Assembly (NCBI GenBank): GCA_021108005.1
Contig: JAIORS010000104.1
Location: 1-64,000, forward strand
Direction: 5' to 3'
DNA from: Candidatus Aegiribacteria sp.
GTDB taxonomy: Bacteria > Fermentibacterota > Fermentibacteria > Fermentibacterales > JCC-6
DNA: 64,000 bases
Position 1 is the first letter of the stretch, and every line of letters starts with the position of its first letter. Below the pieces are notes generated by a model. It had not been told where the DNA came from, made no database searches, and worked only from the letters and a program-made list of their open reading frames with translations. The position numbers and the translations under genes are program-made. Positions 2,447 through 54,350 of the stretch are shown piece by piece.

Positions 2447-4246
2447 ATGAGATCACATCAGCTCACTTCTGAGGAACTCATTAGCGAAGTAAAGACTGTT
2501 AGAGATTTCTCGCTTTCACCCGATGGTAAGTCAGTCGCTTTCTCCAGAACGACCAAAGGTATTTCCCAAATATTCCTTGCGGAAATAAAAGAATTCGAAC
2601 CAGAACAACTGACTGAATGTCCTGGCTCCAAGACTTCACTTACTTGGTCATCAAACAATGATCTGATAGCATTTGCACATTCAGAGAAAGATGGTAAAGG
2701 TTGCGATCTTTGCACGATCAACCCATTTGATGGAACTGTAAACACACTGCTTGAACTGGAAGAGGGCAGCATTTGGTCTTCTTCCTGGTCACATGACGGC
2801 AAGCATCTTGTATTCTGTTCAAACTATAAAAGCTCAATAGATATCTTCACAATAGATGCTGACGGTAAAAATCTGCTTCGTCTTACCTCGGGCTCGGAGA
2901 TGGATCAGTATCCACAGTGGTCTCCGGATGGATCCAGATTACTCTTTTACAGAAGTATTGGTCAGGGACCACTTAGCCAATATGAGATGAGAATGATTAA
3001 CCGGGATGGAAAAGAGCTGCGTGTAATCGGACCGGAAGCAAAACGTAACGGTTGGGGTAAATGGTCACCAGACGGAAAGACTATTGCATTTGCTTCAAAC
3101 GTTAGCGGTAGCTACCATATCGGAATTCTGGATTTACATAAAGATGAGATAAGATGGGTGACCACGGGGGAAAGGAATTACTGGAATCCGGTCTGGTCAC
3201 CGGATGGGTCCAAACTAGCTTGTCAGGTTGACATGAATGGGAGTCGAAGAATCACCATAACAGATGTGAAAAGCGGTGAGATGCAACTTGTTGGACCAAC
3301 TGCAGGTTTGTGTTCAGACATGGAGTTCACATCTGATTGCAAATCACTAGTTTTTACTCACGAGGGCCCGCTGAATCCTTTTAACCTTTGGTCAATTGAT
3401 CTGAATACAAATGAGTTACTGCAACTGACCTTTGGTTTGCCTGATTCCATCGATGAAGAAGTACTGGTAACACCGGAAGAGGTCACTTATTCCTCTTTCG
3501 ATGGGTTGGAGATATCTGCGCTACTTTTCAGACCGATATGTGAACCGAACGATACACTTCCTCCAGCGATTGTCAGACTTCATGGAGGACCCAACTACCA
3601 GACTTTTAATTGGTGGCACCCCAGGATTCAGCTACTGGTTAATCACGGGTATTTGGTTCTTGCCCCAGACTTTAGGGGGAGTACCGGATACGGAAAGGCA
3701 TTCGAGGAGAGAAGCATCGGTGACTGGGGTGGCGGAGATATGGAGGATGTAATTGCCGCAGCTGAATGGCTTAAGACTACCGGGCAGGCTGATCCGGACA
3801 GTATAGCTCTCCTGGGAGGCAGTTACGGAGGTTACCTGATGCTGATGGCAATGGCCAGAGCTCCTGGACTCTGGGCGGCTGGAGTTAACCTCTTCGGCTT
3901 CATCGACCTTAAGACATTCCACAGCAGTACCAGTGGTTGGGTGAGAGAGTGGTTAGAAAATCAGATCGGCAATCCAGAAGAGAATCCTGAATTCTATCGA
4001 GATCGATCTCCAATGACTCATTGCTCCGAGATCACAGCACCATTGCTGATACTTCATGGAGCCAAGGATGAACGTGTTCCTCTCAGCCAGGCCAAACGAC
4101 TAAGGGATCAAATGGAAAGAAATGGCAAGGAATGCAGTCTGGAAATCTATAAGGATGAGGATCACTACTTCAGCGAGAATTCCACACAGATCGAAATCAT
4201 GAAGACAATTCTGTGTTTTCTGGATAAACATGCTGCGAAGAAATAA
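2447..4246 (+). CDS. S9 family peptidase with TolB-like propeller
   Basis: 599-residue prolyl oligopeptidase-family serine peptidase (acylaminoacyl peptidase/DPP-type). Residues 1 to about 350 form a TolB/WD40-like beta-propeller with repeated WSPDG-type blades. The C-terminal alpha/beta hydrolase has the nucleophile in GGSYGGY (Ser459), Asp541 in HGAKDERVP and His573 in DEDHYF, giving a complete triad. The ATG at 2447 has AGGGAG upstream; an in-frame ATG at 2387 would overlap the broken kinase and is less likely. No signal peptide is visible, so a cytoplasmic peptide-degrading role is likely. Its stop is 119 bases from the convergent hydrogenase operon end. Confidence 0.9.
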   Translation: MRSHQLTSEELISEVKTVRDFSLSPDGKSVAFSRTTKGISQIFLAEIKEFEPEQLTECPGSKTSLTWSSNNDLIAFAHSEKDGKGCDLCTINPFDGTVNTLLELEEGSIWSSSWSHDGKHLVFCSNYKSSIDIFTIDADGKNLLRLTSGSEMDQYPQWSPDGSRLLFYRSIGQGPLSQYEMRMINRDGKELRVIGPEAKRNGWGKWSPDGKTIAFASNVSGSYHIGILDLHKDEIRWVTTGERNYWNPVWSPDGSKLACQVDMNGSRRITITDVKSGEMQLVGPTAGLCSDMEFTSDCKSLVFTHEGPLNPFNLWSIDLNTNELLQLTFGLPDSIDEEVLVTPEEVTYSSFDGLEISALLFRPICEPNDTLPPAIVRLHGGPNYQTFNWWHPRIQLLVNHGYLVLAPDFRGSTGYGKAFEERSIGDWGGGDMEDVIAAAEWLKTTGQADPDSIALLGGSYGGYLMLMAMARAPGLWAAGVNLFGFIDLKTFHSSTSGWVREWLENQIGNPEENPEFYRDRSPMTHCSEITAPLLILHGAKDERVPLSQAKRLRDQMERNGKECSLEIYKDEDHYFSENSTQIEIMKTILCFLDKHAAKK

Positions 4247-4365: not shown

Positions 4366-4851
4366 TCAAGAGGTAGATTCCGTTACTGACAGCAGGTCTG
4401 TCAGCGCTTCCAGCATATAGGCGACCGCGGGAGATAGTGGCGCGCCGAATTCGATGCTTCCAGGCTGAATCGCAAGCAGGAATATTCCTGCTCCAGTCTC
4501 CTCCTCCAGCCTTTCCATGACCAGTACTGGTGAGAGCGAGTGTGTTGTAAAGCCGGTTTCGCCTTTAATATCGTTTCTGTCTAGCAGTTCGACAGCCCCT
4601 GGTTCTCTGTCCAGGTGAACAGCGTCAACGATAATCACTGTATCCGGATCAAACCTGGTGACCGAACGTATATGGTTTTCCGGAACCGTTCCCGCATCGA
4701 CAGTACATAGACCCTTTTCAGACAGTCTTGACACCAGTTCGGGGCCGATGCCGTCATCCCCCCTGAGGATATTGCCGATACCCATGAAAACTACTCTGCC
4801 CAGCAGCAGAGAACTCAGTCTGTCTTCAAGCATCCGCAATTGTTCGTTCAT
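4366..4851 (-). CDS. hycI: [NiFe] hydrogenase maturation protease HycI-type
   Basis: 161-residue endopeptidase of the HycI/HyaD (M52) family, which removes the C-terminal peptide from the hydrogenase large subunit once nickel is inserted. The N-terminal GIGN-LRGDDGIGPEL signature is near residues 24-39; the metal-binding set is consistent with Asp32/33, Asp76 in VDAVH and His104 in TTHSLSP. Last gene of the 17-gene hydrogenase operon, 88 bases after the ferredoxin gene. The large subunit in this operon keeps a cleavable C-terminal extension, its obvious substrate. The start is the ATG at 4851; upstream in-frame ATGs at 4872 and 4929 lengthen an unrelated tail. Confidence 0.92.
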   Translation of the reverse strand: MNEQLRMLEDRLSSLLLGRVVFMGIGNILRGDDGIGPELVSRLSEKGLCTVDAGTVPENHIRSVTRFDPDTVIIVDAVHLDREPGAVELLDRNDIKGETGFTTHSLSPVLVMERLEEETGAGIFLLAIQPGSIEFGAPLSPAVAYMLEALTDLLSVTESTS

Positions 4852-16874: not shown

Positions 16875-16980
16875 TTCTGCAATCGTCACATCAGGTATAC
16901 TCGTCTATCGTTATCATCATACGCCTGCTTTGCACTGTTAGAAATTCGTACAAATTTACCCGGATACTACCTTTCCTGTC

Positions 16981-17094
16981 GGGGTCGGACGTAACTTCTG
17001 GTTACTTACCGTCCTGTCGGGGTCGGACGTAACTTCTGGTTACTTACCGCAAGTAACCAGAAGTTACGTCCGACCCCGATACACGTCCGACCCC
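16981..17094. repeat. Palindromic REP-like repeat cluster, copy group 1
   Basis: Two direct copies of a unit beginning GGGGTCGGACGTAACTTCTG lie at 16981 and 17019 (38 bases apart, each preceded by CCTGTC). An inverted copy is at 17051-17077 and a partial inverted copy at 17083-17094, each followed by GATACA. The second direct and first inverted copies form a near-perfect 27-bp stem (17019-17045 with 17051-17077) and a 5-base loop. Units of this type resemble the short palindromes mobilised by REP-associated tyrosine transposases (IS200-like), but no transposase gene is in the window. Confidence 0.85.
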
Positions 17095-17244
17095 GATACA
17101 TTTACAAATTCTATCATCCGTTGACAATACTAATTGCACTATATATATAGATACAGCGATAATAAAAATTTGAAAATGTATGATAACTTACATGTGTACT
17201 TTTATACCATTGTTGTATAAGTACAATAGAAATGGAATCCATTT

Positions 17245-18273
17245 ATGATAAGAGGTATTCTTTTCGTTATCGTTTTTTCCCATGTTCTATTACCCGCAGT
17301 ATATGGGAACGGGTACGATGACTACCCGCCGGATCTCGTCTGGTCACCGGTAGAAGATGTTCTTGTGGCCGCCCTTGAGGACAGGCTTGTAATATGGACA
17401 CCTTACGAAGGCCCGGTAACAGTTATGGAAGGTGAAGCGGCATCTCCCGCTTTCACTCCTGACGGTGAATGGGTAGCATTCATACTTGACGGAACGATAC
17501 GCTACTTCCAGGTTGATAATCCCCAGAGCTGCAGACGGATTCCACATGCAGACGAAAGGGTTGCCTGTACATTCGATCCGATGGGCCATCCCCGTGCTCC
17601 CGCTCTCTGTTTTACCACGCGGTTACTTGGCAGCGATATTTACGCAATGGGGCTCTTTTCAGATGATGTTCTCGTGCTCCTGCCCGAGAATTCGGAAGTC
17701 AGGGTCAACGCCCCTGTGATATCACCCGACGGAGACAATATCGCCTGCGTGAATTTCGCCATGAATCCAACATGGTACGAAGAACTGTATATCATAGGTG
17801 ACTCCGCACCCCTTGGAATGAGGGCCAGAGCTGATACAACCTTCTACAACTGGAGTGAATGGCATGAATCTAATCCCGTATGGATAACATCCAAAGTGTT
17901 GATATTCCAGATAGGTGGATGGGGAGAATGGGAACTGAGATTTCTCAATATTGAGTCCGGAATTGAGAAGCTCTTCATGGGAAACGCCCACCAGGTATGC
18001 TCAGCCCTTGACGGAAGGCTCCTAGCCTTCTGCCGAAAGGATCCTTTCCCGGAATCGGACTTCGGACTATCATGGGAAGATCCTACCACCGTATGGATAA
18101 TGGACAGGGAATCTGACTATCTCACTCAGGCTTCACTGCCGGGAGAATGGGCAACCCGGCCTGCAATCTCATATGATGCCGATTACTTAGCCTGGATAGA
18201 AATAACCCGGGATGGGGAGGTATTGAAAGTTGGGGTCGGACGTAACTTCTGGTCACTTCCCGAATGCAAGTGA
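17245..18273 (+). CDS. Secreted TolB-like beta-propeller protein with repeat-derived C-terminus
   Basis: 342-residue predicted exported protein. An N-terminal signal peptide (residues 1 to about 21, ending near VYGNG) is followed by WD40/TolB-like blades with motifs such as WSPVED, FTPDGEW and ISPDGDN. Such propellers usually bind proteins or carbohydrates; no enzyme motif is seen. The last 13 codons (from 18232) lie entirely within a copy of the palindromic repeat, so the natural C-terminus has been replaced or extended by inserted DNA. The gene is convergent with the lytic transglycosylase at 18324. Confidence 0.75.
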   Translation: MIRGILFVIVFSHVLLPAVYGNGYDDYPPDLVWSPVEDVLVAALEDRLVIWTPYEGPVTVMEGEAASPAFTPDGEWVAFILDGTIRYFQVDNPQSCRRIPHADERVACTFDPMGHPRAPALCFTTRLLGSDIYAMGLFSDDVLVLLPENSEVRVNAPVISPDGDNIACVNFAMNPTWYEELYIIGDSAPLGMRARADTTFYNWSEWHESNPVWITSKVLIFQIGGWGEWELRFLNIESGIEKLFMGNAHQVCSALDGRLLAFCRKDPFPESDFGLSWEDPTTVWIMDRESDYLTQASLPGEWATRPAISYDADYLAWIEITRDGEVLKVGVGRNFWSLPECK

Positions 18274-18343
18274 AAGCTGGGGTCGGACGTAACTTCTGGT
18301 TACTTACGGTAAGTAACCAGAAGTTACGTCCGACCCCGATACA
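18232..18343. repeat. Palindromic REP-like repeat cluster, copy group 2
   Basis: Direct copies at 18232-18261 (diverged at the 3' side, TCACTTCCC) and 18279-18308, and an inverted copy at 18311-18337 followed by GATACA. The last two form a stem of about 28 bp with a 3-base loop. The cluster occupies the space between two convergent genes and overlaps both coding ends, giving the left gene its last 13 codons and the right gene its stop codon. As RNA it would fold from either strand and may act as a bidirectional terminator or mRNA 3' stabiliser. Confidence 0.88.
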
Positions 18344-20525
18344 ACGCCTTATATATCATGTACGCATGATGAACATTCTGTACGTAACTCTTCGTCTCAT
18401 TGTAAGTTATGAGCGCAAAGAATTCATCGGTATCCATATCCGCAGCACCCCAATGAACTGCGTTGTGAGGCCCTCCGTTGTAAGCTGCCGCGGCAATCAC
18501 GGGATTACCACCGAAATCCCTGTTTATGCCGGATATGTAGCTGATTCCGTATTCTATGGAAACTGCCGGGTCGTATAGCTTGTCAGGCGAATAATCATCC
18601 CATCCATTTTCAATCGCTACATATTCAGAGGTGCTTGGAATCATCTGGATGAGTCCCCTTGCTCCAGCAATTGAGTAACATGTGGGCTGGAACATGCTTT
18701 CATTCCTGATTATGGCCCATGCCAGAAGGGAATCCAGTCCATACTTCTCACCCGCTGGAACCACAAGCTCCGGCCATGCCTTTTGATATCGCAGCATCCA
18801 CAACTCTCTTGGCCTATCGCTGCCAGCCAGATCCCACATATTGTATCCCGAAATGGGTCTCCTTTCCCAGACTTCGTTATCAAGGTAGAAAGGAGCAAGG
18901 TACTCGGGTCCGCCTACGATCTCTTCCGCTTCCCTGAACTCACCATCCGCGAAATGTCTCAGCCCCGCTTCCTGAAGAAACAACCCCCTTAAAGCGGCTT
19001 CCGGCGGTACAGCGGGTAAATATCCATTTTTTGCCATCCATTGATCAAGTGGCTCATCTGTAAATTCAGGTTCCCAGGCAGACCGTCCCAGTAATTCCCT
19101 TGCGAAAAAGGCGGGAAGACTTGCGGGAGCTGCCTGAATCAGAGCCTCGAGTATGGCTGTACCTTCAGGATTACCTTCGCTATAAAGGAGTTTGCCAAGC
19201 CAGTATTTCGCGGATGATAGGTATACACTTCCAGTCCATTTTGAAATGAAATTTTCAAATTCGACCATAGCGTCGATTATTCTGCCGGACTTGAGGAGCG
19301 AAAAACAGAGATAGAAATGCGCGTCATCAGCTGTAACATTGTACGGGTAACGGTCAAGAGTCATCTGAAACCAGGGAATGGCCTGCTGCCATTGCCTGTT
19401 CTCCACCAGCAGGTCGCCTATATACCAGGGAAGGTTTCCTATCCTGAAATGGTCAGGAAACTCCTCTCCGTACTGCTTTAAAACCGCAAGCCCTTCCCGC
19501 CAGTCGCCGGAACGCCCCAGGTCACGTCCAAGATAAATCATCGCATTGGGTGTATCCGTCCCTTCCGGCCATCTGAAAAGATACTGCTCAAGCATCTCTA
19601 TGGCAGTATCGTAAAATCCCAGCCTGTCCCTTGTACGTGCGGCCAGATACCACAGGTGCGGATCGGGATCGGGGGAATTCTGAGCTATATCGTACAGTTC
19701 GTTCCAGAGTCCCCCGCTATAGAAGTAATCAGCAACTGAACCGGCAAAATCCCTGTCCGCGAGTATTTGCGGCCTTAATGCGTCATACGCACTGGCATGG
19801 ACAGGAGCCGCTGGCCAGAGTTCAAAGGACTTCAGAAAGATGTTTCGGTATCCGGAAATGCCTTCATCAGCCATCCACATCCCCCTGTAATGACATAAAA
19901 GGGATCGAAGTTCTTCACCCCCTGAGTTCTCAGCGTAACTAAATAGAGAATCCGATGATGATAGGCTACCTGTTTCAAGGAAGCCCCTGTACAAAAGGAT
20001 TGTTCTTCTTCTGAGAGCCCTTTCGGGTAAACTTCCGGGAACTCCACTTAGGGCGGTCAGCGCTAATTCTGCTTCACCGGTTTTCAGAAGGGAATCTGCA
20101 AGAACAAGGCGGAGATATTCAGGCATCACGCAATTATTACGTGACATGCAGGAAAGAAGATCCCTGCCGATATTGGCGCCTCCCAGTTCAAGTGCCCTGT
20201 ATGGAGCCAGGGAATCCGTCAGTTCTAGCAGCAGCTGGGCAGTAAGCACGCTGGGTAAATCGGAGGAATCGGCAGCTTTCCAGATAAGGCAGGCTCTATG
20301 GCTGTCTTCAGGCGTTCTGAGCAGAACAGCCCTTAAGTATTCTTCCCTGGCCCTGACTTCCATTCCTGACTGCAGCAGGGAATCCCCGCTGGCTTCAGCA
20401 AGCATGCTTCTCTGTTGGCATGAAAGGTTATCAAGGTTTTCATTCGGCTGGAATGCTCTGCACGTAATCAGTGCAAATGCTACAACAAGAATGAATCCAG
20501 AATACTTAGTCCTTGTACTTGGCAA
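18324..20525 (-). CDS. Slt-type lytic transglycosylase lipoprotein with TPR-like helices
   Basis: 733-residue soluble-lytic-transglycosylase relative. A signal sequence ends in the lipobox LITC (Cys22). A long alpha-helical TPR-like superhelix occupies most of the protein. The C-terminal SLT domain (about residues 590-725) has the catalytic Glu in IIRNESMF, then GARGLIQMIPST and AAAYNGG. It would cleave peptidoglycan with 1,6-anhydro product formation in the periplasm. The start appears to be TTG at 20525; no ATG precedes the signal peptide. The final residues RGRT and the stop are encoded by the palindromic repeat. It overlaps the upstream TPR gene by 20 bases. Confidence 0.88.
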   Translation of the reverse strand: MPSTRTKYSGFILVVAFALITCRAFQPNENLDNLSCQQRSMLAEASGDSLLQSGMEVRAREEYLRAVLLRTPEDSHRACLIWKAADSSDLPSVLTAQLLLELTDSLAPYRALELGGANIGRDLLSCMSRNNCVMPEYLRLVLADSLLKTGEAELALTALSGVPGSLPERALRRRTILLYRGFLETGSLSSSDSLFSYAENSGGEELRSLLCHYRGMWMADEGISGYRNIFLKSFELWPAAPVHASAYDALRPQILADRDFAGSVADYFYSGGLWNELYDIAQNSPDPDPHLWYLAARTRDRLGFYDTAIEMLEQYLFRWPEGTDTPNAMIYLGRDLGRSGDWREGLAVLKQYGEEFPDHFRIGNLPWYIGDLLVENRQWQQAIPWFQMTLDRYPYNVTADDAHFYLCFSLLKSGRIIDAMVEFENFISKWTGSVYLSSAKYWLGKLLYSEGNPEGTAILEALIQAAPASLPAFFARELLGRSAWEPEFTDEPLDQWMAKNGYLPAVPPEAALRGLFLQEAGLRHFADGEFREAEEIVGGPEYLAPFYLDNEVWERRPISGYNMWDLAGSDRPRELWMLRYQKAWPELVVPAGEKYGLDSLLAWAIIRNESMFQPTCYSIAGARGLIQMIPSTSEYVAIENGWDDYSPDKLYDPAVSIEYGISYISGINRDFGGNPVIAAAAYNGGPHNAVHWGAADMDTDEFFALITYNETKSYVQNVHHAYMIYKALYRGRT

Positions 20526-52067: not shown

Positions 52068-54308
52068 CTATCTGATAACCACGCAGGATCTTGTCAGTGT
52101 ATTACCATTGGTGGAAAACTTGAGTAAGTAAACACCACCTGGTACCGGTGTACCGTTCGAATCGATTCCCATCCATTGTATGGAGTGGGTTCCAGAAAGC
52201 ATTTCACCGGAGGCAACGTTGGTCACAAGTCTTCCGGACAGATCGTAAATATCCAGAGAGGCGTCTCCGGTCACAGGCATAGCGCAAGTAAAAGTAGTGG
52301 AATTTGAGAAGGGGTTAGGTGCCGGGTGGGAAAGCTCGAGGCTCATTACACCACTGCTACTACCCGCAATCCCGGTTGTAACTACTACTGAAGCAACGTA
52401 AGGATACAGGTTATGACGGGTGCAAGTAATTGTCGCATTCCCCATACCTGGAATTGCGGGAATATCAAAGGACACCAGACCGGAAGCATTCGTATAGCCG
52501 CTCTGGAGAAGTGTCGTATCCTGTACAACTCCTACGAGCGCACCCTCAACAGGTGATCCGTCTGCTGTTACCGTCACGCTCCAGGTACCTTCAGCGATAG
52601 TTGCCAAATGATCTCCAGCAAGATGTACAATGGGTGAAGTATCGGTGAAAATATCGAATTCCGGACAACCCATTATCATGTGCATATTACTGTTACTGGC
52701 ATCCCCGGTGTACTGGTAGGCCTTTATTTTACCGTAATCGAAGGCTGCTCCCATGTGATACATTTCCTCTTCGAAGTAACCTCTGAACTGGTACAAGGCC
52801 AAAGAATCGGTTGGACCAACGGGGCTGCCTTTTGTTGCTCCCATGAAACCGACGGCTCCCTTAGGTGATGAAATGCTGCCTTCGTTCATCCATGCTTCAC
52901 CGAAGCATGGGCTGGAATCGTCGAACTCGCAGTTCGAACAAGCAATAGAACTTACCCAGGGCAGCCTTCGTCCGTTTGAGAGTGCCGCGACATCGCTGTT
53001 GCTGAAACCTGTCGTTCCCCATGCAGTATGACTTCCGTGGCCGATGTAGCTGAGAAGAGAAAGCCCATTGTTAACCTCTGCGGATATATTCGAGATCGTA
53101 GGAGGAATACCACCGTAGGCACTGGAGTTACAATAGAGTGTTGTGGACATTTCGTGATTCTGGAATATTGCATGGTACCTCCATGACATCCAGGGATCCT
53201 GAAAATCGGTTGAACCGATGCTTATGGCGTGCTGGAACCAGCTTGTGGCAGGTTCAAAGGGATCGTTCTCGTAGCTTTCGATCTTCCAGCACTGGTACGG
53301 CAATGAACCTGTATCACCGCAAATCCTTCCAACGTGGATGCTGGGATCAACACCGCTGCCGATAACACCGTACTGGTTATCAGCTTCCGTTCCGTTTGCG
53401 TATGGAGTTGGGACAACATTTTCGTCGCCGACAATAAGAATCCATTCGGGAGGATTCGGCCAGTTGCTGTAAGCATTTTCAATCCAAGCGTCAATCTCGG
53501 TTGCTGTACTGCCGATGGCAGGTACCACTCCGTACTGAACATCCAGCCCCTTCTGCCTCTTCCAGTCGATCAGATCCTGAGCGTAACCAATGCTTTCTTC
53601 GGAGCCTATGACAAGGTAAGATCCATCAATAACATCGGTACCCATGGGTTCGAACCCCAGGACTTCTTCATATATCGGCAAATAGCTTCGAGTGTATCCG
53701 TAGAAAGGTCTGTGGATCTCGTTTTCACCAACGCCCTCGGTAGTAAGGCGAATGGCCACGTTCGTGTTTATTATGGTTTCTCCAGAAACAGGATTGTACT
53801 GAACAGGTGAAAAACGCACCCATGCGATTCTGATATCTCTCAGGATGCTTACCCGTTCTATAACAACAGGCTGTGAAGGGTAGAATTCCGAGCTGGAATA
53901 AACATCTTCGTTTATCCTGTAAGGTGCCGGTCCACCGCTTCTGGTGGGATATTCCTGGAATGGAGGAATGCTGAAGATTCCGAGGGGTGAGGATTCTGCT
54001 GATACGATCTCGACACTGACATCACCAGTATTGGGAATAAGAACCATTCTTCTGATAACTGGCAGATCCGGGCTTCCAACGGGCATGCCTTCTCCCCCCC
54101 GAGGAATTCTAAGAATAGTCCCTTCGCCAAAATCTCCAACGATTTCGTTTTCAGCGGTAAGAGCGGGAAGGGTGAATTCAACAAGTATGCCTTCATCATC
54201 CATGCCAAGGAATTCAGCGGTTTCTGTGAAATCCTCGGCACGGTACAACACTTCGGCACTGGCAATTACTGCAAGAAGCAGCAGCGGAATAATCATAACT
54301 CTCAACAT
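52068..54308 (-). CDS. C25 (gingipain-type) cysteine protease with C-terminal sorting domain
   Basis: 746-residue secreted protease. Signal peptide LLLLAVIASA, then a prodomain-like beta region, then the C25 catalytic domain. The likely dyad is His424 in YIGHGSH and Cys457 in IACSNCEF, exactly 33 residues apart as in gingipains. The C-terminal about 85 residues, beginning PAPNPFSNSTTF and ending GGVYLLKFSTNG...VVIR, are the FlgD-Ig/type IX secretion sorting fold. The ATG at 54308 has GGAGG at good spacing; longer upstream reading frames begin inside a REP-like repeat and are not used. Confidence 0.9.
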   Translation of the reverse strand: MLRVMIIPLLLLAVIASAEVLYRAEDFTETAEFLGMDDEGILVEFTLPALTAENEIVGDFGEGTILRIPRGGEGMPVGSPDLPVIRRMVLIPNTGDVSVEIVSAESSPLGIFSIPPFQEYPTRSGGPAPYRINEDVYSSSEFYPSQPVVIERVSILRDIRIAWVRFSPVQYNPVSGETIINTNVAIRLTTEGVGENEIHRPFYGYTRSYLPIYEEVLGFEPMGTDVIDGSYLVIGSEESIGYAQDLIDWKRQKGLDVQYGVVPAIGSTATEIDAWIENAYSNWPNPPEWILIVGDENVVPTPYANGTEADNQYGVIGSGVDPSIHVGRICGDTGSLPYQCWKIESYENDPFEPATSWFQHAISIGSTDFQDPWMSWRYHAIFQNHEMSTTLYCNSSAYGGIPPTISNISAEVNNGLSLLSYIGHGSHTAWGTTGFSNSDVAALSNGRRLPWVSSIACSNCEFDDSSPCFGEAWMNEGSISSPKGAVGFMGATKGSPVGPTDSLALYQFRGYFEEEMYHMGAAFDYGKIKAYQYTGDASNSNMHMIMGCPEFDIFTDTSPIVHLAGDHLATIAEGTWSVTVTADGSPVEGALVGVVQDTTLLQSGYTNASGLVSFDIPAIPGMGNATITCTRHNLYPYVASVVVTTGIAGSSSGVMSLELSHPAPNPFSNSTTFTCAMPVTGDASLDIYDLSGRLVTNVASGEMLSGTHSIQWMGIDSNGTPVPGGVYLLKFSTNGNTLTRSCVVIR

Positions 54309-54322
54309 TTTGAGCCTCCATT

Positions 54323-54350
54323 GGGGTCGGACGTAACTTCTGGTCACTTA
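54323..54350. repeat. Solitary REP-like repeat near protease gene
   Basis: A single direct copy of the GGGGTCGGACGTAACTTCTG unit, ending TCACTTAC, lies 15 bases upstream of the C25 start codon. It matches the variant at 18232 (GGTCACTT) more closely than the others. It sits in the promoter/leader region of a minus-strand gene and is followed by an A+T-rich stretch to about 54530 in which no gene is seen. Confidence 0.8.

Follow-up and report, generated by a model that had tools for sequence, protein, structure and literature searches.

The stretch analysed here (64,000 nucleotides, hereafter the window) corresponds to positions 1–64,000 of contig C104 in a 3.2-Mb draft genome of Candidatus Aegiribacteria (G000). 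Within it, the abutting convergent ends of a TolB-like gene and a lytic transglycosylase (SLT) gene are occupied by copies of a short repeat (Table 1). The copy that enters the TolB-like gene is a 27-nt head, GGGGTCGGACGTAACTTCTGGTCACTT, which reads in frame as GVGRNFWSL and is followed by PECK and the stop codon. It is identical at 26 of 27 nt to the head found in the adjacent palindrome, and the two lie in a longer direct repeat (18224–18269 and 18271–18316, 85% identical). The palindrome itself consists of two arms of 29 nt, 100% identical and separated by a 1-nt spacer. As the initial annotation had stated, its inverted copy supplies the end of the transglycosylase, since the right arm is read as RGRT-TAA and the SLT ORF terminates in YRGRT. 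The companion statement that 13 codons of the TolB-like gene are repeat-encoded could be upheld for nine of them, because PECK and the TGA lie outside the shared head. An Rfam search of the window gave no match. Element clusters are found on both sides of the TolB-like gene, at 16981–17093 and 18232–18337. Clusters also bracket the gene in the related genome G016, where the 5′ one belongs to another family (L146, about 2337–2398 and 3448–3508).

Table 1. Genes and repeat-derived features of the window.
Feature	Position	Strand	Evidence
TolB-like (PD40 beta-propeller) gene, C-terminus remodelled	17245..18273	+	ORF list, PD40 match, orthologue tails
Direct element head (family A), encodes GVGRNFWSL of the TolB-like protein	18232..18258	+	Repeat comparison, translation
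TGA stop of the TolB-like gene, immediately outside the head homology	18271..18273	+	Translation
Left arm of the perfect palindrome (REPIN-like doublet)	18279..18307	+	Repeat comparison
Right palindrome arm, with the head from which the SLT gene takes RGRT and its TAA stop	18309..18337	-	Repeat comparison, translation
TAA stop supplied to the SLT gene by the element	18324..18326	-	Translation
Lytic transglycosylase gene, SLT domain and TPR repeats	18324..20525	-	ORF list, domain matches
Second element cluster, upstream of the TolB-like gene: heads in direct (two) and inverted (one) orientation, 17-bp partial head duplication	16981..17093	.	
Single (unpaired) family A head adjoining the 5′ end of the C25 peptidase gene	54323..54349	+	

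The head is not confined to this junction. Allowing up to two mismatches, we found 23 copies in the G000 genome, as compared to none for a reversed-pattern control, and as RNA the palindrome is predicted to form a hairpin of -64.5 kcal/mol (z = -8.1). Both results are far beyond chance, and the copy number bears out the earlier view of the repeat as a dispersed, mobile-type element. Related heads were present in 14 of the 19 genomes of the genus that were searched, the genus counts being drawn from the retrieved loci. They occur either as singles, many of which have no inverted partner nearby, or as head-to-head palindromes, and such inverted doublets were seen at several G000 loci (e.g. on contigs C104, C181, C26, and C139). 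As expected for repeats, several G000 contigs terminate within the element. The same palindrome or head is found at the end of C181 and the start of C195, and again at the starts of C6 and C174, and each pair probably adjoins in the genome, the assembly having been broken by the repeat. We also observed that 15 of 113 heads are directly preceded by a tandem partial head, consisting of a few nucleotides of flank plus GGGGTCG(GAC..) (e.g. window 17077–17093, L013, L019, L116, and L120); these duplications could be footprints of slippage or of a transposition intermediate.

To define the ends of the two proteins before the repeat arrived, we compared orthologues from other members of the genus, an approach that did recover the original termini. 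Head-free TolB orthologues end in DGEVLKVF(x)TEEFI, and head-free SLT orthologues in IYKALYE, YIK, or similar. Genome G010 represents an empty site with no element, in which the genes abut and their stop codons overlap (SLT ending YIK, TolB ending EFI), and the junction of G012 likewise lacks the hairpin. Since these tails and the empty site give the original ends, the change made by the palindrome at the SLT end would have been confined to one or two residues plus RGRT, whereas TolB would have lost about eight residues to the direct head. Both ends were thus remodelled, in line with the initial annotation; its further proposal of one insertion for both was not supported for the window, where tolB ends in a distinct direct head located before the palindrome, so that either two units were involved or one was later duplicated in tandem.

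The same convergent junction is occupied by different palindromes, at slightly different nucleotides, in G000, in G016 and G003, and in G017. In G016 and G003 the palindrome is of another sequence (GGGGCCGGGCGTCACTTCTGGTCAC..) and lies one nucleotide further on; the SLT tails end in YLGPGVTSGHLQR and YLGPDVTSGHLPD, respectively, and TolB is intact in both. The palindrome of G017 is of family D, with arms 18/23 alike; by itself it yields a TolB end of VLKV-IRVGQKKVHMQ and the SLT stop codon (TA/G), and judging from these reading frames it is the best example of a single insertion that would have remodelled two proteins. The junction has also lost sequence. In the sister species of G000, Candidatus Aegiribacteria sp. 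CSMAG_515 (G013), the segment equivalent to window 16956–18320 is missing, that is, tolB together with nearly all of both flanking clusters (L171, around 4724–4735). The left end point of this loss coincides with the upstream cluster (Table 1), and the element clusters coincide with the end points of the deletion as a whole. The SLT of G013 nevertheless keeps RGRT and its stop, on a decayed head (GAGGTCGGACTTAA) whose position matches that in the window to the nucleotide. In G011, tolB is also gone and a 12-bp scar remains, GGGGCCGGCCCC (L064, around 1485–1500), which looks like a collapsed palindrome. In both genomes the loss of tolB has its end points at element clusters.

We then looked for an enzyme that could have moved the heads. 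G000 has eight Y1_Tnp genes, one of which (C63; L003, 383–1396) encodes a protein of 337 aa and is bracketed by family A heads in inverted orientation, with about 1.16 kb between them. The protein scores above the cut-off for Y1_Tnp but reaches 63 bits with the RAYT model REP_Tyr_transpos, under its cut-off of 80. It carries the HUH motif PNHLH, and both the motif and the conserved tyrosine are retained across seven aligned homologues. Bac_DnaA_C was detected in the homologues of G011 (E = 2e-6) and G015 (E = 9e-4), in both cases under the curated cut-off; the C-terminus of the G000 transposase aligns with this DnaA-like HTH region, yet without a Pfam match of its own. A PDB sequence search with the C63 transposase gave no match. 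Inverted heads about 1.13–1.16 kb apart with a transposase between them were found at C63, on contig C17 of G016, on contig C366 of G015, and at the family D loci.

The C63 transposase neighbours tsaC, whose product likewise terminates in RGRT, and a transposase locus adjoining tsaC is also present in G016, G003, G011, G018, G006, and G001. The gene stays beside tsaC in many species while its terminal inverted repeats (TIRs) change (tsaC loci L175, L178, L180, L182, L183, and L188), so that this position is a long-lived home locus. The terminal repeats belong to family A in G000, to family C in G016 and G003, and to family D in G011, G018, and G006, and each lineage has dispersed heads of the same family as its transposase ends. 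Because of this match, the sequences provide good evidence for co-evolution of transposase and TIR and for mobilisation in trans, and the heads of the window would have been mobilised by the C63-type transposase.

A preference for gene 3′ ends was supported genus-wide; target-site preference at gene ends had been named in the initial annotation as a point to check. An ORF stop lies 0–10 bp upstream of the head in 20 of 108 usable heads (18.5%), as compared to 0.58% of 6,000 control positions taken from the same loci, and a further 20 of the 108 are entered by an ORF (controls, 4.6%); a gene was defined in this comparison as an ORF of at least 100 codons, genes being called overall as ORFs of at least 90–100 codons. 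The distance to the stop peaks very sharply at 0–2 bp, stop triplets are enriched at offsets 1 and 2, and heads face 3′ ends of genes 59 times and 5′ ends 27 times. There is also a weak flank bias (AT/GGGG, 31 observed versus 8.6 expected), TGAT being the commonest 4-mer. By way of comparison, IS200/IS605 elements move as single strands and insert 3′ of a fixed tetranucleotide. At one locus (L155; G004, contig C137, 2426–2869), two heads separated by 443 bp face outwards, and each is 0–2 bp from the stop of a convergent long ORF.

Families A and D carry the in-frame TAA. For these heads, 17 of 21 entering ORFs are in the frame that ends in xGRT and the stop, corresponding to nine gene families against four in another frame; a plus-strand ORF ending in WGRT at the 54323 head was left out of the count, as it is antisense to the C25 peptidase gene. 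Examples include TsaC (six species), a methyltransferase (two species), and a cupin (three species), and the TsaC and methyltransferase orthologues without heads have other C-termini. We claim no difference between TAA-bearing and TAA-less heads in how often ORFs enter them (Fisher test, P = 0.065), and since related genomes were taken as independent, the P values err on the optimistic side and are best taken as effect sizes.

This distribution may reflect either targeting or survival after selection. Insertion could be random, with copies elsewhere lost to purifying selection and the survivors' built-in stop ending the gene at once, a reading that we rate at slightly less than an even chance. 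It would account for the frame bias towards GRT, which fits selection for the shortest tail, and for the 27 heads facing 5′ ends, and C-termini are known to tolerate change (PMC5896051). Selection acting alone does not readily explain the excess of 3′ over 5′ ends or how sharply heads are placed: the stop-proximal peak, the enrichment at offsets 1 and 2, and the AT/GGGG flank point to some target preference. Both processes may have operated, as selection of this kind is compatible with mobilisation by the transposase.

The hairpin had also been proposed as a terminator for both genes. Its perfect 29-bp stem, folding energy, and convergent position would suit a bidirectional terminator, or a 3′ mRNA-stabilising hairpin under selection to which the effect on the protein ends is incidental, and for REPs located downstream of genes a role at the RNA level has been suggested (PMC3733652). 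However, a T-tract accompanies this GC-rich hairpin on neither strand and a terminator scan of the site was empty, which led us to drop the terminator reading. The junctions of G010 and G012 do without a hairpin, and many heads have no inverted partner with which to form one. Selection for an RNA function as the primary explanation is therefore unlikely, with a role in mRNA 3′-end stability being possible as a secondary effect. It is hardly credible, in turn, that the common tails go back to ancestral protein sequence, with the repeat being a coincidence or a product of gene conversion between coding ends. G013 does end its SLT in RGRT although most of the repeat is gone, but it does so on the decayed head described above, and it was the only orthologue found with this tail, those of the other genomes being unrelated. 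Moreover, unrelated proteins (TsaC, the methyltransferase, and the cupin) have GRT beside the same head and only where a head is present, which rules this reading out.

Taken with the dispersed copies, the cognate transposase gene, the empty sites, and the orthologue tails, the repeat is very probably the TIR belonging to a TIRYT/RAYT-type element with an IS200-like tyrosine (HUH, Y1) transposase; it would have been dispersed in trans and have remodelled the ends of tolB and slt. The TIR would spread both in single-head form and as head-to-head palindromes (REPIN/BIME-like doublets), its copies settling preferentially at gene 3′ ends, a few bases from stop codons, and one such palindrome would have entered the junction of the two genes. 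Since the TAA in the outward-facing head of this palindrome is in frame (GGT CGG ACG TAA), RGRT and TAA would have replaced the terminal one or two residues of SLT together with its stop. The adjacent direct head, arising by tandem duplication or a second insertion, would have exchanged about eight TolB residues for GVGRNFWSL-PECK, and both new tails would have been tolerated. The clusters flanking tolB may also have set the ends of its deletion in the sister species. A bolder version, which we consider rather doubtful, is that heads evolved as portable stop cassettes: the transposase would target stop-codon contexts while the head brings its own in-frame stop, making convergent ends safe landing sites that are hit repeatedly, with C-termini rewritten across the genus and genes between two clusters deleted.

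Palindromic elements of Rickettsia are likewise translated within host proteins, mostly in frame inside genes, whereas in Aegiribacteria only protein ends are replaced. The closest parallels are TIRtrons, in which GGGG-type TIRs are scattered singly or as dimers (Di Nocera et al, 2013, PMC3733652), and the TnpA-REP subclass 2.1, a group considered equivalent to TIRYTs and marked by a C-terminal DnaA-like HTH (Quentin et al, 2018, PMC6006769). Shared with these are a Y1 HUH transposase with a C-terminal extension (in which relatives show the below-cut-off HTH match described above), flanking inverted repeats starting with GGGG, and TIR dispersal in both forms. The head, GGGGTCGG, agrees with the TIRYT/TIRtron motif GGGGWSAS at seven of eight positions (G for A), a motif that the papers give for some or most TIRs rather than all. 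The host lineage is new, and the family A and D heads differ in holding an in-frame stop used by many genes. REP, BIME, and REPIN sequences with their RAYTs also form inverted doublets with a short spacer and have a transposase between inverted copies (Nunvar et al, 2010, PMC2817692; Bertels & Rainey, 2011, PMC3116915); they lie near the 3′ ends of convergent genes, and the termini of GTAG REPs often supply TAG stops (PMC3733652). REPs of the RAYT type, however, have a small hairpin adjoined by a GTAG (or CGTC) tag, whereas no GTAG head is found here, the element starts with GGGGTCGGAC, its arms (29–30 nt) are paired across the palindrome instead of folding singly into small hairpins, and copy number is low (23 close copies versus the >100 usual for REPs). 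In Coxiella, non-autonomous inverted repeats (QMITE1 and QMITE2) within functional genes sit at 3′ ends, where they replace C-terminal residues and can supply the protein end, but they are unrelated in sequence, longer (about 190 bp for QMITE2), and flanked by direct repeats of 7–9 bp (PMC5896051).

That REPs and MITEs supply stops or C-termini is therefore already known (PMC3733652; PMC5896051); what is new here is the uncultured lineage and the unusually complete comparative evidence. In the open-access literature, we found no earlier description either of recurrence at one convergent junction or of a frame bias to a head-encoded stop. The junction offers a natural series for palindromic elements rewriting protein ends, comprising an empty site, different palindromes at one position, a decayed head, a 12-bp scar, and the deletion of a flanked gene, and with it target preference versus selection becomes testable for TIRYT elements, whose dispersal is little studied. 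The results also carry a warning for annotation, as common C-terminal tails in unrelated proteins (e.g. RGRT) can be repeat-derived. Finally, the C25 (gingipain-like) peptidase gene of the window (52068–54347), which encodes a propeptide and a Por-type sorting tail, has a single head at its 5′ end.
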